Shown here piece after piece: positions 8,149 through 12,644 of a stretch of DNA of 64,000 nucleotides. The notes under the pieces were generated by a model that made no database searches, had not been told where the DNA came from, and saw nothing but the letters and a program-made list of their open reading frames with translations. The DNA comes from Anaerolineales bacterium (GTDB lineage: Bacteria > Chloroflexota > Anaerolineae > Anaerolineales > UBA11858): the NCBI GenBank assembly GCA_028278545.1, contig JANQED010000151.1, positions 1 to 64,000 of the forward strand, given 5' to 3'. A program made the position numbers and the translations under genes. The number at the start of each line of letters is the position of its first letter. Position 1 is the stretch's first letter.

Positions 8149-9942
8149 ATGAAAATGTCGCTTCTCTTCAGCCAAACGTTACGCGAAGCGCCAACGGATG
8201 CTGAAATGCCCAGCCATCAATTATTAGTCAGGGCTGGTTTCATCCGTCAACTGGCCGCGGGGATCTATACCCTGATGCCTCTGGCAAAGCGCTCGATTAC
8301 CAAGATCGAAGATATTATGCGCGAAGAGATCGATGCCATTGGTGGACAAGAGATGACTATGCCTGTCGTCCATCCCGCAGAATTGTGGCAGGAGACCGAG
8401 CGCTGGTACCAGATCGGTTCTGAGATGGGCCGCTTCAAGGACAAGAACCAGCGGGACATGGTGCTGGCCATGACCCATGAGGAGGTCGTTGCCGACCTGA
8501 CCCGCAAGGAGATCCATTCCTATCGCCAACTGCCCGCGCTGATCTACCACATTCAGACCAAATGGCGGGATGATCCACGCCCACGCGCCGGCCTGATCCG
8601 GGTGCGCGAATTTACCATGAAGGACAGCTATAGCCTGGATAGGGATTGGGAAGGCCTCGACCTTCAATACTGCAACCACTACCAGGCCTATTTCGACATC
8701 TTTCATCGTTGCGGAATCCCGGTGATTGCTGTCAAGTCGGATGTGGGCATGATGGGCGGCAAGATGGCCCATGAGTATATGTATCTGACTCCCTTTGGTG
8801 AAGATACGCTCTTGATTTGTGATGATTGTGGATATGCCGCCAACCGGCAGGTGGCTACCTTCAAAAAGGAAGCCCTCCCAAAGGAAGATGCCTTGCCGCT
8901 GGAGAAGGTCGCCACGCCAGAGTGCAAGACCATCGCTGAGTTGGCTGCCTTTCTCGACGTCCCCGAGGCCAGGACGGCCAAAGCGGTCTTCATGGTGGCC
9001 GATATCCCCGAAGGTCAGTCCAGCGTCCAGAAGTTTGTCTTTGCCATCGTGCGCGGCGATATGGACCTTAATGAGACCAAGCTGACCAACGCCCTGGGAG
9101 CGATTGAGCTGCGTCCCGCCACCGAGGAAGAGATCGAAGCTATTGGGGCCGTTCCGGGTTACGCCTCACCGATAGGATTGCCAGAAACGAACGATTATCT
9201 ACCGGTTGTGACCGTAGTCGACGATTTGATCCCCGCGTCGTTCAACCTGGTGGCAGGCGCCAACGATGAGGGGTACCACGTGCTGAACACCAATCTAGGG
9301 CGTGATTATCAGGCCGACATCATCACCGATCTGACTGCGGCGCGTGCCGGGGATGCCTGCCCGGAGTGTGGCGGTTCCTTCCGGGAGATACGCGGCGTTG
9401 AAGTGGGCAACATCTTCAAATTGGGCACCCGCTACAGCGACTCCATGGGCTGTACTTATCAGGACAAAGATGGCGTAGAGAAACCAGTCATCATGGGTTC
9501 CTATGGCATAGGCAGCGGTCGTTTGCTGGCTTCGATTGCCGAGGAATATAATGACGAACATGGCTTGATCTGGCCGATCACAGTAGCTCCCTACCAGGTG
9601 CACCTGGTTGTTCTGCCTGGAAAGAAGGACGGAGGTCAAGTGGAAGACACCGCCACCCGGCTTTACAAAGATTTACAGGCCGAGGGCGTGGAAGTGCTCG
9701 TGGATGACCGCGCCGAGAGCCCAGGTGTGAAGTTCAACGATGCTGACCTGATCGGTCTTCCCATCAGGCTGACCGTCAGTGAACGTGGTTTACGAGATGG
9801 GCAGATCGAGTTCAAGCGTCGCGACCAGGATGAGAAGCGCATGATCCCCCAGCAGGAAATCATCGAGGCTGTCAAGGCAGAGATTGCTGCTCTCGAAGCG
9901 GAGATTCAGGCAAAAGTGGTCGAAATGCCCTTCGAGGAGTGA
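8149..9942 (+). CDS. proS: Prolyl-tRNA synthetase, bacterial type with editing insert
   Basis: 597 residues, close to the usual 570-ish for ProS with the INS editing domain. Class II core: MTHEE and VREFTMKDSYS (motif 2 region) in the first 160 residues. A YbaK-like editing insert spans about 225-395. Motif 3, GSYGIGSGRL, is near 455, and a C-terminal anticodon-binding domain follows (about 480-575). It charges tRNA-Pro and clears Ala-tRNA-Pro. The ATG at 8149 has GGAGG eight bases upstream. A structured RNA with terminator precedes it and a strong terminator follows, so it forms its own unit. Confidence 0.97.
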   Translation: MKMSLLFSQTLREAPTDAEMPSHQLLVRAGFIRQLAAGIYTLMPLAKRSITKIEDIMREEIDAIGGQEMTMPVVHPAELWQETERWYQIGSEMGRFKDKNQRDMVLAMTHEEVVADLTRKEIHSYRQLPALIYHIQTKWRDDPRPRAGLIRVREFTMKDSYSLDRDWEGLDLQYCNHYQAYFDIFHRCGIPVIAVKSDVGMMGGKMAHEYMYLTPFGEDTLLICDDCGYAANRQVATFKKEALPKEDALPLEKVATPECKTIAELAAFLDVPEARTAKAVFMVADIPEGQSSVQKFVFAIVRGDMDLNETKLTNALGAIELRPATEEEIEAIGAVPGYASPIGLPETNDYLPVVTVVDDLIPASFNLVAGANDEGYHVLNTNLGRDYQADIITDLTAARAGDACPECGGSFREIRGVEVGNIFKLGTRYSDSMGCTYQDKDGVEKPVIMGSYGIGSGRLLASIAEEYNDEHGLIWPITVAPYQVHLVVLPGKKDGGQVEDTATRLYKDLQAEGVEVLVDDRAESPGVKFNDADLIGLPIRLTVSERGLRDGQIEFKRRDQDEKRMIPQQEIIEAVKAEIAALEAEIQAKVVEMPFEE

Positions 9943-10097: not shown

Positions 10098-11468
10098 ATG
10101 ATCAAGATTGGCGATTTCTCCAAGCTGGCCCATGTCACGGTCAAAACCCTGCACCACTATGGTGAGTTGGGCTTGCTCAAGCCGGCTCATATCGACCGCT
10201 ACACAGGCTACCGCTACTACCGCCTCGAACAGATGTCTCGACTCAATCGCGTTCTGGCGCTTAAGGATTTGGGATTCTCACTTGATCAGGTTGCGCAACT
10301 GATCGATGAGAACCTTTCCACAGCAGAGATACGCGGTATGCTGCGCATGAAGCAGCTGGAGTTAGCCGAGAAAGTCGAGTTCGAACAGACACGTTTGGCT
10401 CGAGTGGAGATCCGGTTGCGAGAGCTTGAGCGGGAGGGTTCATCCCCTGACCGCGAGATTGCCATCAAAGAGATCGGTTCCCAGGTTGTGCTGTCGGCAC
10501 GCGGTGTTGCAGCCAGCCAGAGCGCCCTGCTTCCAGCACGAGAGAGCTTGCGGGAGTTGCTGCTGCTTCACCTGGATCGTGCTGGGTTAAAGCCCTATGG
10601 GCCCTGGTTTGCAATGATGGACGATCTGCCCTATTCCGAGGTTGATCTCGAAGTCGAGATGGCAGTGCCGGTCAAGCCTGGCGCACGTCAACGTGCTGGT
10701 GATTGGCAGGGTACACCGGTCAACCTGCGGGAGCTGCCCTCTGAGAGCAAAATGGCCAGCGTGATCCATGAGGGTGAATATGCAGACATCAATCATGCTT
10801 ACACTGACCTGTACGCTTGGTCTCAGGCTAACGCATTCAAGATCGCCGGGCCTTGTCGAGAAGTCTACCTGCCTGAAACAGGAATCAGCACGAACGTAGA
10901 TTCCGATATCTGCTCCGGATTCATCGAGGTGCAATGTCCTGTTGAACGGGCCAGCATCCCCATATCAATCTATACACTTGCATCTGATCGAAAGGAAAAA
11001 CTGATGGAACCCAAAATTGTAACCAGACCCCCCATGATAGTTGTTGGCATATCCTATGTGGGCAAGAATGAGAACAACGAAATCCCCCAAATGTGGGGGC
11101 GATGGATGGAACGCTCCGATGAAGTCAAAAACAAGACTGGTTTCTGTAGTTACGGAGTCTGCTACGGTGAGCCGGAAGGCGTTGATGAAGGCGAGTTTGA
11201 ATATGTGGCTTGCGTGGAAGTCAGCGAGGCGTCCGACATCCCTGAGGGTATGGTCATGCGCCGCGTCCCGGAGTACAAGTATGCCGTCTTTACCCATCAC
11301 GGCAAACTAGATAATCTGAATGACACCTACAAGTACATCTACGAGACCTGGCTGCCCCAAGCAGATGTCGAACTCCATCCCGACAAGTTCGATATGGAAC
11401 TCTATGACAAGCGTTTCATCCCTGACTCGGAGAAGTCTGAGTTTGACATCCTGGTAGCAGTGAAATAA
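10098..11468 (+). CDS. MerR-family regulator with two GyrI-like effector domains
   Basis: 456 residues, much longer than usual single-effector MerR proteins (about 270). The N-terminal winged helix (1-70) reads IGDFSKLAHVTVKTLHHYGELGLL. A dimerisation coiled coil follows to about 115. Next is a GyrI/BmrR-type effector-binding domain (about 125-295). A second unit of the same kind starts near the internal MEPKIVTRPPMIVVG and runs to the C-terminus. GyrI-like domains bind hydrophobic or cationic small molecules. The gene looks like a fusion of a BmrR-type regulator with a stand-alone GyrI-like protein. No transporter is next to it; the only clear target is its own promoter. Confidence 0.88.
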   Translation: MIKIGDFSKLAHVTVKTLHHYGELGLLKPAHIDRYTGYRYYRLEQMSRLNRVLALKDLGFSLDQVAQLIDENLSTAEIRGMLRMKQLELAEKVEFEQTRLARVEIRLRELEREGSSPDREIAIKEIGSQVVLSARGVAASQSALLPARESLRELLLLHLDRAGLKPYGPWFAMMDDLPYSEVDLEVEMAVPVKPGARQRAGDWQGTPVNLRELPSESKMASVIHEGEYADINHAYTDLYAWSQANAFKIAGPCREVYLPETGISTNVDSDICSGFIEVQCPVERASIPISIYTLASDRKEKLMEPKIVTRPPMIVVGISYVGKNENNEIPQMWGRWMERSDEVKNKTGFCSYGVCYGEPEGVDEGEFEYVACVEVSEASDIPEGMVMRRVPEYKYAVFTHHGKLDNLNDTYKYIYETWLPQADVELHPDKFDMELYDKRFIPDSEKSEFDILVAVK

Positions 11469-11552: not shown

Positions 11553-12644
11553 CTATGGCTGATAGATTTCGCTTTCGGGATAAAAATCCTCCCAGGCCCA
11601 ATCGAACGAGGTCAGGCTGGGGATGGGCTGCAGCGCTCGACCTTCGAGAGGGCCAGTAATCCCTAAGCCTAGACTTACATCCCAGGTGGATTCTGTTTCC
11701 ACATCCTTCAAGATCCCCTCTTCCCATCAGAAGGTAAGAGTTTTTCCGTCCACAGTTCGCAGGTAGGTGCGATAGTCATCGTTTGCCGCCCAAATCAATA
11801 CCGGGAACTCGCCAATCCAGTCGTTGAGCATGTTCTCGCTGGCGACATCTTCGTAATGATAGGCTTTGGAGAGACCAGCGACCACCAAACCGATGACGAA
11901 ATCCGTGTCGAATTTCTGACGTTGAAATCCGAGCTGAGAATAGCTGTTGACCATGGCCAGTGTGTAGGGGTAAGTCGTTCTCCAATTTGCCCAAGAGGTC
12001 ATTTGCGAAGGAAGAAGGCCCAGCTCAGTGCCTTTCAGCGGGCCAGCTAGAGCGCGTCCCGTTGGCTGTGACCAGATGGAGATGGTTTTGTGATCCCACC
12101 AGGTCATCGCGTATTTGTACAACCCACCTGCATTGCCGAAGAGATGAGTTTCATCATCAATGCGCCGGTCGTGCACGAGACCGGTGTAACACAGCGGTCA
12201 GTAAGTAACCAGTGTGGGGATGCCAGCTAACTCATCGTTGACCATTTCCCGAAAACGCAGCACTGTAATCGGGTAAGCCTTGGCCTCGCCGTCCCAGGCT
12301 ACCCCTAAGACGAGTTCCTCGTCATCAAAAGGGGCTTCCTCAGCGCTGACGAAGGCCGGATGATAAACCGGGTAAATGCCATCAAAGGGGATGGACTGCT
12401 CATAGCCTAGCGGCAGCTCAGAGGGTGTGGGAATGGCCGTCGGTTTGCTTGCTGTAGGCTCGATTGTTGGTATAGGGGATGCCGGAGTTGTGGGGGTGGG
12501 GGGGATTGGGTTCTGTTCGGGGGTAGCCGTGTGCCGGGGGAACGGCGCATCAGCCGAAAGGCCGGACGACGCAGCACAGCGGGAAAGGGAGATCACTCCC
12601 AGGGCTATCCAGAGGCACAATCGGAGGGCTTTTCTCCTGATCAT
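11553..12644 (-). CDS. DUF3179-family protein, candidate selenoprotein (in-frame TGA)
   Basis: One reading frame of 364 codons, interrupted only by TGA at 12198-12200 and 11727-11729. It starts with a signal sequence (MIRRKALRLCLW...; possible but non-standard lipobox LSRC), then a Pro/Thr linker. The DUF3179 domain follows (GVAWDGEAKAYPI, VNDELAGIPTLVTY, later GRALAGPLKGT and TVDGKTLTF). The first TGA, codon 149, falls exactly where the family has the first Cys of VTYCPLC, giving U-P-L-C, a redox UxxC motif. A 6-bp hairpin starts 13 bases after it. The frame stays intact beyond both TGA codons. The second TGA (codon 306) aligns with a variable position and is unexplained, so a pseudogene with two nonsense changes remains possible. 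Confidence 0.65.
12165..12184 (-). promoter_or_regulatory. SECIS-like hairpin after the in-frame TGA
   Basis: On the minus strand, 13 bases after TGA, CCGGTC (12184-12179) pairs perfectly with GACCGG (12170-12165) around an 8-base loop. The loop begins about 20 bases after the UGA, inside the range known for bacterial SECIS elements. The loop has G at its third rather than first or second place, so the fit is good but not perfect. Confidence 0.45.

Follow-up and report, generated by a model that had tools for sequence, protein, structure and literature searches.

The question raised by this locus is whether a DUF3179 gene with TGA codons in its reading frame encodes a selenoprotein, and how far along that frame translation proceeds. 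The gene lies on the minus strand of contig JANQED010000151.1 of an Anaerolineales bacterium, in a stretch of 64,000 nucleotides that is called the window below. Its features are the following.

11553..12644, minus strand: DUF3179 gene, 363 codons plus TAG only if both in-frame TGAs are read
12644, minus strand: start codon ATG
12200..12198, minus strand: TGA, codon 149, predicted to encode selenocysteine as first residue of the UxxC motif (U-P-L-C)
12189..12191, minus strand: TGT, Cys152, second residue of the UxxC motif
12184..12165, minus strand: SECIS-like hairpin, 6-bp stem CCGGTC/GACCGG with loop TCGTGCAC, GU at 12176-12175
11729..11727, minus strand: second in-frame TGA, codon 306, predicted stop
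11556..11726, minus strand: 57 codons 3' of TGA306, with the match to the family kept, part of the second domain repeat
11555..11553, minus strand: stop codon TAG, reached only if both TGAs are read

The original prediction pointed to the sequence V-T-Y-TGA-P-L-C on the minus strand, which is present with TGA at codon 149 and cysteine at codon 152, and it correctly stated that neither TAA, TAG nor a frameshift occurs between the ATG and the TAG. Its statement that the frame remains intact for 215 codons past the TGA overlooked a second in-frame TGA, in the context L-T-F-U-W-E-E-G, which follows 157 codons later at codon 306. With both TGAs taken as cysteine, the window protein scores 196.5 bits against PF11376 (Pfam gathering cut-off 27) over residues 88-358 and profile positions 2-292 of 292, a match that is uninterrupted only if both codons are read; the whole-genome search with this profile likewise found the gene with two internal TGAs. 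The probable explanation is that the gene belongs to the known family of DUF3179 selenoproteins, with UGA149 encoding selenocysteine and UGA306 ending translation early. By this mechanism, SelB with Sec-tRNA (anticodon UCA) would bind the hairpin located 14-33 bases past UGA149, selenocysteine would be inserted at codon 149, and the exported product would have the redox motif U-P-L-C on the first of its two repeats. UGA306 would be either a nonsense mutation of recent origin or an error of the assembly, and would remove the last 58 residues.

Selenocysteine at codon 149 is not new, as DUF3179 is already a listed selenoprotein family. The tables of PMC9312934 and PMC13188914 list it with a UxxC/T motif, the former crediting the listing to Zhang and Gladyshev 2007, and NCBI protein names label two relatives (P0080, P0082) as DUF3179 (seleno)protein, all of which bears out the original prediction, where the family is described as an annotated (seleno)protein family. 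The window gene is like the listed selenoproteins in its Pfam family and in having a UxxC motif with UGA in first place. As far as the literature was searched, what is new is the comparison of hairpins across the family, the second TGA, and a neighbouring selenoprotein of the redoxin type.

Homologous loci were obtained by searching the named genomes with an alignment of close relatives and keeping the best 80 of 112 confirmed candidates, a set that is weighted toward close relatives by design. At the position of codon 149, where an alignment with homologues had been proposed as a check, UGA followed by xxC is found in 76 of 79 genome loci (from the best of 112 candidates) and CxxC in the other three; the exact motif UPLC occurs in the correct frame in L115, L035, L023 and L024. 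Three further DUF3179 genes are present in the genome of the window, two without TGA (Cys-type) and one with a single TGA. The window protein was aligned with its 120 best listed relatives and with one orthologue, and in 88 of the 122 rows position 149 is empty; many of the 88 are pieces of about 207 residues that start right after the UGA. Thus, gene callers apparently split DUF3179 genes at the UGA and start after the stop, by which the redox motif is dropped from annotation. In the alignment test of UGA versus cysteine for bacterial selenoprotein genes, codon 149 passes and codon 306 fails.

The perfect 6-bp hairpin of the original prediction is found as described, with arms at bases 14-19 and 28-33 past TGA149 and an 8-base loop at bases 20-27. 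Taken alone, it is modest evidence for selenocysteine; an equally long stem occurs in 239 of 20,000 synonymous recodings of the window sequence and behind 45 of the 2,360 TGA triplets of the window. Across homologues, the hairpin is decisive evidence. Bases 22-23 are flanked by a perfect stem of six or more Watson-Crick pairs in 69 of 79 distinct Sec-type sequences and in none of 20 Cys-type sequences, the best of which have 5 bp (two of the 20). Synonymous recoding of the 79 Sec-type sequences yields a mean of 1.15 such stems, with a maximum of four in 100 trials, and for 18 Cys-type sequences (the two Cys-type paralogues of the window's genome being left out of this set) 0.31 are expected and none is observed. 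The ten Sec-type sequences without such a stem comprise four with perfect stems of at most 3 bp or in other registers, the rest having 4-5 bp; four additional sequences, L105, L106 and L140 with 6-bp stems and L083 with 4 bp, lie outside the count of 69 in 79. The dinucleotide GU at bases 22-23 occurs in 78 of 79 Sec-type sequences, but 16 of 20 Cys-type sequences have it as well; it is therefore mostly protein-coded and does not discriminate between the two types.

The stems differ in sequence while occupying the same place: CCGGTC/GACCGG, CGGCGATG/CATCGCCG, CGGGAAT/ATTCCCG and CGGGCAT/ATGCCCG all occur. For 23 sequences that share one register, 99.4% of cells are paired, compared to at most 53.4% in slid registers, and 12 cells have a change on both sides, compared to 2.9 in shuffles; of five measures, two are no higher than in the shuffles, namely the number of pairs with double change and that of pair types. 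The shuffle leaves the kinship of the sequences in, and the slid registers are the safer control. A single base-pair register for all types of stem was tried with 59 sequences (56 distinct) and failed the covariation control, because the groups of stems pair in registers one base apart. With varied stems at one place in one family, and stems shorter than 6 bp in all of 20 Cys-type sequences, the collected set is a clean natural experiment on the evolution of the bacterial SECIS.

The bacterial SECIS prediction that had been proposed as a further check gives a divided result. The rules applied were a G in loop position 1 or 2, a loop of 3-9 nt, a spacing of 16-37 and a minimum free energy of at most -7.5 kcal/mol. 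A strict scan without bulges finds no match at codon 149, the G being third in the 8-base apical loop of the unbulged hairpin rather than first or second. The published rules for loop and spacing agree with the window hairpin only if a 2-base bulge is introduced, in which case the 20-base hairpin has -6.0 kcal/mol versus the stated limit of -7.5. The 60-base stretch has -15.9 kcal/mol. With the bulge permitted, 296 of the 2,360 TGA triplets of the window score equally well, and this together with the result of the strict scan makes a prediction from a single sequence insufficient as proof. Compared with the bacterial SECIS consensus in Fig. 2 of PMC13188914, in which a stem-loop lies 16-37 bases past the UGA with GU in the apical loop, the window hairpin is alike in its apical GU and, if the 2-base bulge is allowed, in its spacing, and the CCGGTC form differs by having G third in the unbulged loop. 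In Rfam no match reaches the gathering scores; with E-values relaxed, the opposite strand has two matches, both below threshold.

The machinery for selenocysteine insertion is largely present in the genome, in partial agreement with the expectation that selA, selB, selC and selD should be found: tRNA-Sec (75.1 bits, anticodon tca, that is UCA), selB (328.7 bits including a neighbouring piece) and selA (531.8 bits) all score over their cut-offs, and the search for selD returned two weak matches of 57 and 55 bits versus a cut-off of 125 in an assembly that is 84.87% complete. One of these weak matches is taken to be hypE, as it lies directly after a hypD-like gene. Elsewhere, 14 of 21 family genomes and five of six genus relatives have a selD that scores over the cut-off, and the missing gene is taken to be an assembly gap. 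In all 14 of those family genomes (L141-L144 included), selD has one in-frame TGA, so SelD itself is probably a selenoprotein there. On contig C49 the tRNA-Sec gene is 3.7 kb away from a Cys-type DUF3179 gene (C49:74030-78778, L051), and on contig C191 selB is about 11 kb away from another of the Cys type; both may be chance. Given the codons of the homologues, the conservation of the hairpin, and the presence of selA, selB and tRNA-Sec in the genome, it is very likely from sequence comparison that UGA149 is read as selenocysteine.

A reading that takes UGA149 for a normal stop or an error of assembly, and its hairpin for a product of chance, draws on the stem frequencies among recodings and TGA triplets given above, but a TGA in 76 of 79 loci (best of 112), hairpins in 69 of 79 sequences where 1.15 are expected, and the insertion machinery in the genome already contradict it, as far as sequence comparison goes, and make it highly improbable. 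Another proposal is that the gene is a pseudogene on its way out from which no working protein is made. The second TGA would be expected of such a gene, as would the arginine in place of the lipobox glycine of the closest orthologue and the substitutions of the window protein at conserved Gly164 and Gly318. Against it, UGA149 recurs in 76 of 79 loci and its hairpin in 69 of 79 sequences, hence TGA149 is not a lesion; codons 81-305 are strongly constrained relative to the closest orthologue (pN 0.11-0.13, pS 0.62-0.72); and the tail beyond codon 306 is not clearly decayed, so a pseudogene seems unlikely. That orthologue, L062 (Anaerolineales bacterium isolate BS150m-G17, JADHTJ010000057.1), is 69% identical and has an identical 20-base hairpin, but differs from the window gene in having CAA (Gln) at codon 306 and the lipobox LSGC.

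If both UGAs are read as sense, with selenocysteine at 149 and selenocysteine or another residue at 306, the full protein of 363 residues would be made. The frame and the family match do continue past codon 306 to the natural end, the tail lacks clear decay, and multiple selenocysteine residues are reported by PMC13188914 for some archaeal FrhD/VhuD proteins. Position 306, however, is variable: among 121 proteins and one orthologue it is Arg in 45, Glu in 26, Gln in 10 and other residues in the rest, and cysteine occurs in one of the 118 other rows that have a residue there. Moreover, the longest stem around a GU behind codon 306 has 2 bp, and the published bacterial SECIS rules find just a hairpin of +0.3 kcal/mol; if longer loops are permitted, a weak 4-bp hairpin (-1.7 kcal/mol, 11-base loop) appears, as it does behind 476 of 1,107 TGA triplets. 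Unlike the window gene, the 80 other Sec-type homologues contain no second TGA inside the domain, although one of them (L092) ends before codon 306. Translation of both codons as sense is accordingly rated quite improbable, and the same low rating is given to the variant in which hairpin-directed selenocysteine at 149 is combined with SECIS-less read-through at 306 by selenocysteine or a near-cognate tRNA, which if true would mean that the constrained tail is still made. UGA306 as a second selenocysteine was rejected as a candidate on the column content, the absent hairpin and the lack of a second TGA in homologues.

From the same three observations, namely the variable, non-cysteine nature of the position and the lack both of a SECIS-like hairpin and of a second TGA among the homologues, UGA306 is read as a mutation or error, and the likeliest interpretation is a premature stop, due to a recent mutation or an error of assembly, in a gene that is otherwise under constraint. 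The original prediction of a selenoprotein is thus strongly supported with respect to selenocysteine at codon 149, and its product of 363 residues is doubtful because the TGA of codon 306 is at a non-cysteine position with no SECIS. Decay behind UGA306 was sought by dN/dS relative to L062 and with a leave-one-out score of the columns in 83 rows, and neither measure gives clear decay. The pN of the tail is 0.172, inside the range of 0.047-0.204 for upstream windows; dN/dS is 0.312 for the tail versus 0.107 for codons 150-305; the tail-minus-body score ranks 36th of 83 (with 1 the worst); and of the columns that are at least 80% conserved, the window protein departs from 2 of 54 between residues 165 and 305 and from 2 of 24 between residues 307 and 357, as well as at residue 164. 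Thus, the stop either arose very recently, is an error, or is read through. A search for a sister strain, made with the 149-residue piece between the TGAs, gave 30 proteins, none of them nearer than 80% except that of the window's own single contig. The second repeat is likewise cut short in one relative, P0123 (164 aa, from a 34-kb contig), whose end corresponds to about residue 320 of the window protein, some 15 residues beyond TGA306. A stop at UGA306 would likely cut off the last 58 residues. These form half of the second repeat and are confidently modelled, so their loss should damage the fold. A recoded UGA is therefore no guarantee that the remaining frame is intact.

An hhalign comparison of its halves (probability 99.6) shows that the DUF3179 domain is built of two homologous repeats, and in the proteins compared the C/UxxC motif sits on the first of them. 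The predicted structure has a mean pLDDT of 84.9, with blocks from residue 81 onward at 94-98 except for residues 231-250. A sequence search of the PDB gave one match each at E-values of 0.63 and 0.46, the NCBIfam search gave no family for the window protein, and a class-wide search with PF11376 found a match in 148 of 396 genomes. The Cys-type paralogues on C49 (CPLC) and C191 (CTLC) in the same genome are like the window gene in their domain and in the position of the motif, and differ by having a cysteine codon, behind which the stems are 2 and 3 bp.

In lipoproteins, the cysteine of the lipobox is preceded by Gly, Ala or Ser. The window protein, which has LSRC versus the canonical LSGC of L062, departs from this rule, and the sole match of the pattern lies 5' of its ATG and is false. 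A plain signal peptide is possible, and the arginine is a small additional sign of departure. Of 78 Sec-type genes, 30 have a lipobox-like pattern 5' of the motif, the window's own match being false. The original prediction of an exported protein is consistent with the lipoprotein-like N-termini of relatives, from which export of the window protein may be inferred; at the lipobox itself the window protein has LSRC and the orthologue LSGC. The UxxC motif, the retention of selenocysteine in many homologues, the lipobox-like pattern and the Cys-type paralogues together suggest a redox protein, predicted to be an extracytoplasmic thiol/selenol oxidoreductase; the literature search found no functional study of DUF3179.

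On the plus strand, a gene for a MerR regulator with a GyrI-like domain (10098-11468) converges on the DUF3179 gene, and this gene and the next (8149-9942, plus strand) are common to the window and the locus of L062. At seven of 72 other loci (L064, L065, L067, L070, L077, L079 and L082; some loci are limited by contig ends), a redoxin/AhpC-like gene with its own UGA (T-U-P-Y-C) lies 3' of the DUF3179 gene on the same strand, as for example at L070:6911-7618 on the plus strand. The redoxin/AhpC-TSA neighbour has the motif GSFTUPYCGMA, and its distance from DUF3179, measured to the first possible redoxin start codon, ranges from an overlap of 83 bases to a gap of 149 bases. Sec-type DUF3179 and redoxin may form an operon of two selenoproteins, and the linkage supports a redox role for DUF3179. 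The redoxin neighbour is absent at the window gene, and the window's genome has just a distant relative of it. At C144:19836-20357 (L145), the window's genome has a gene that resembles T4_deiodinase (89.2 bits) and contains a single TGA in frame (GSFTUPP).
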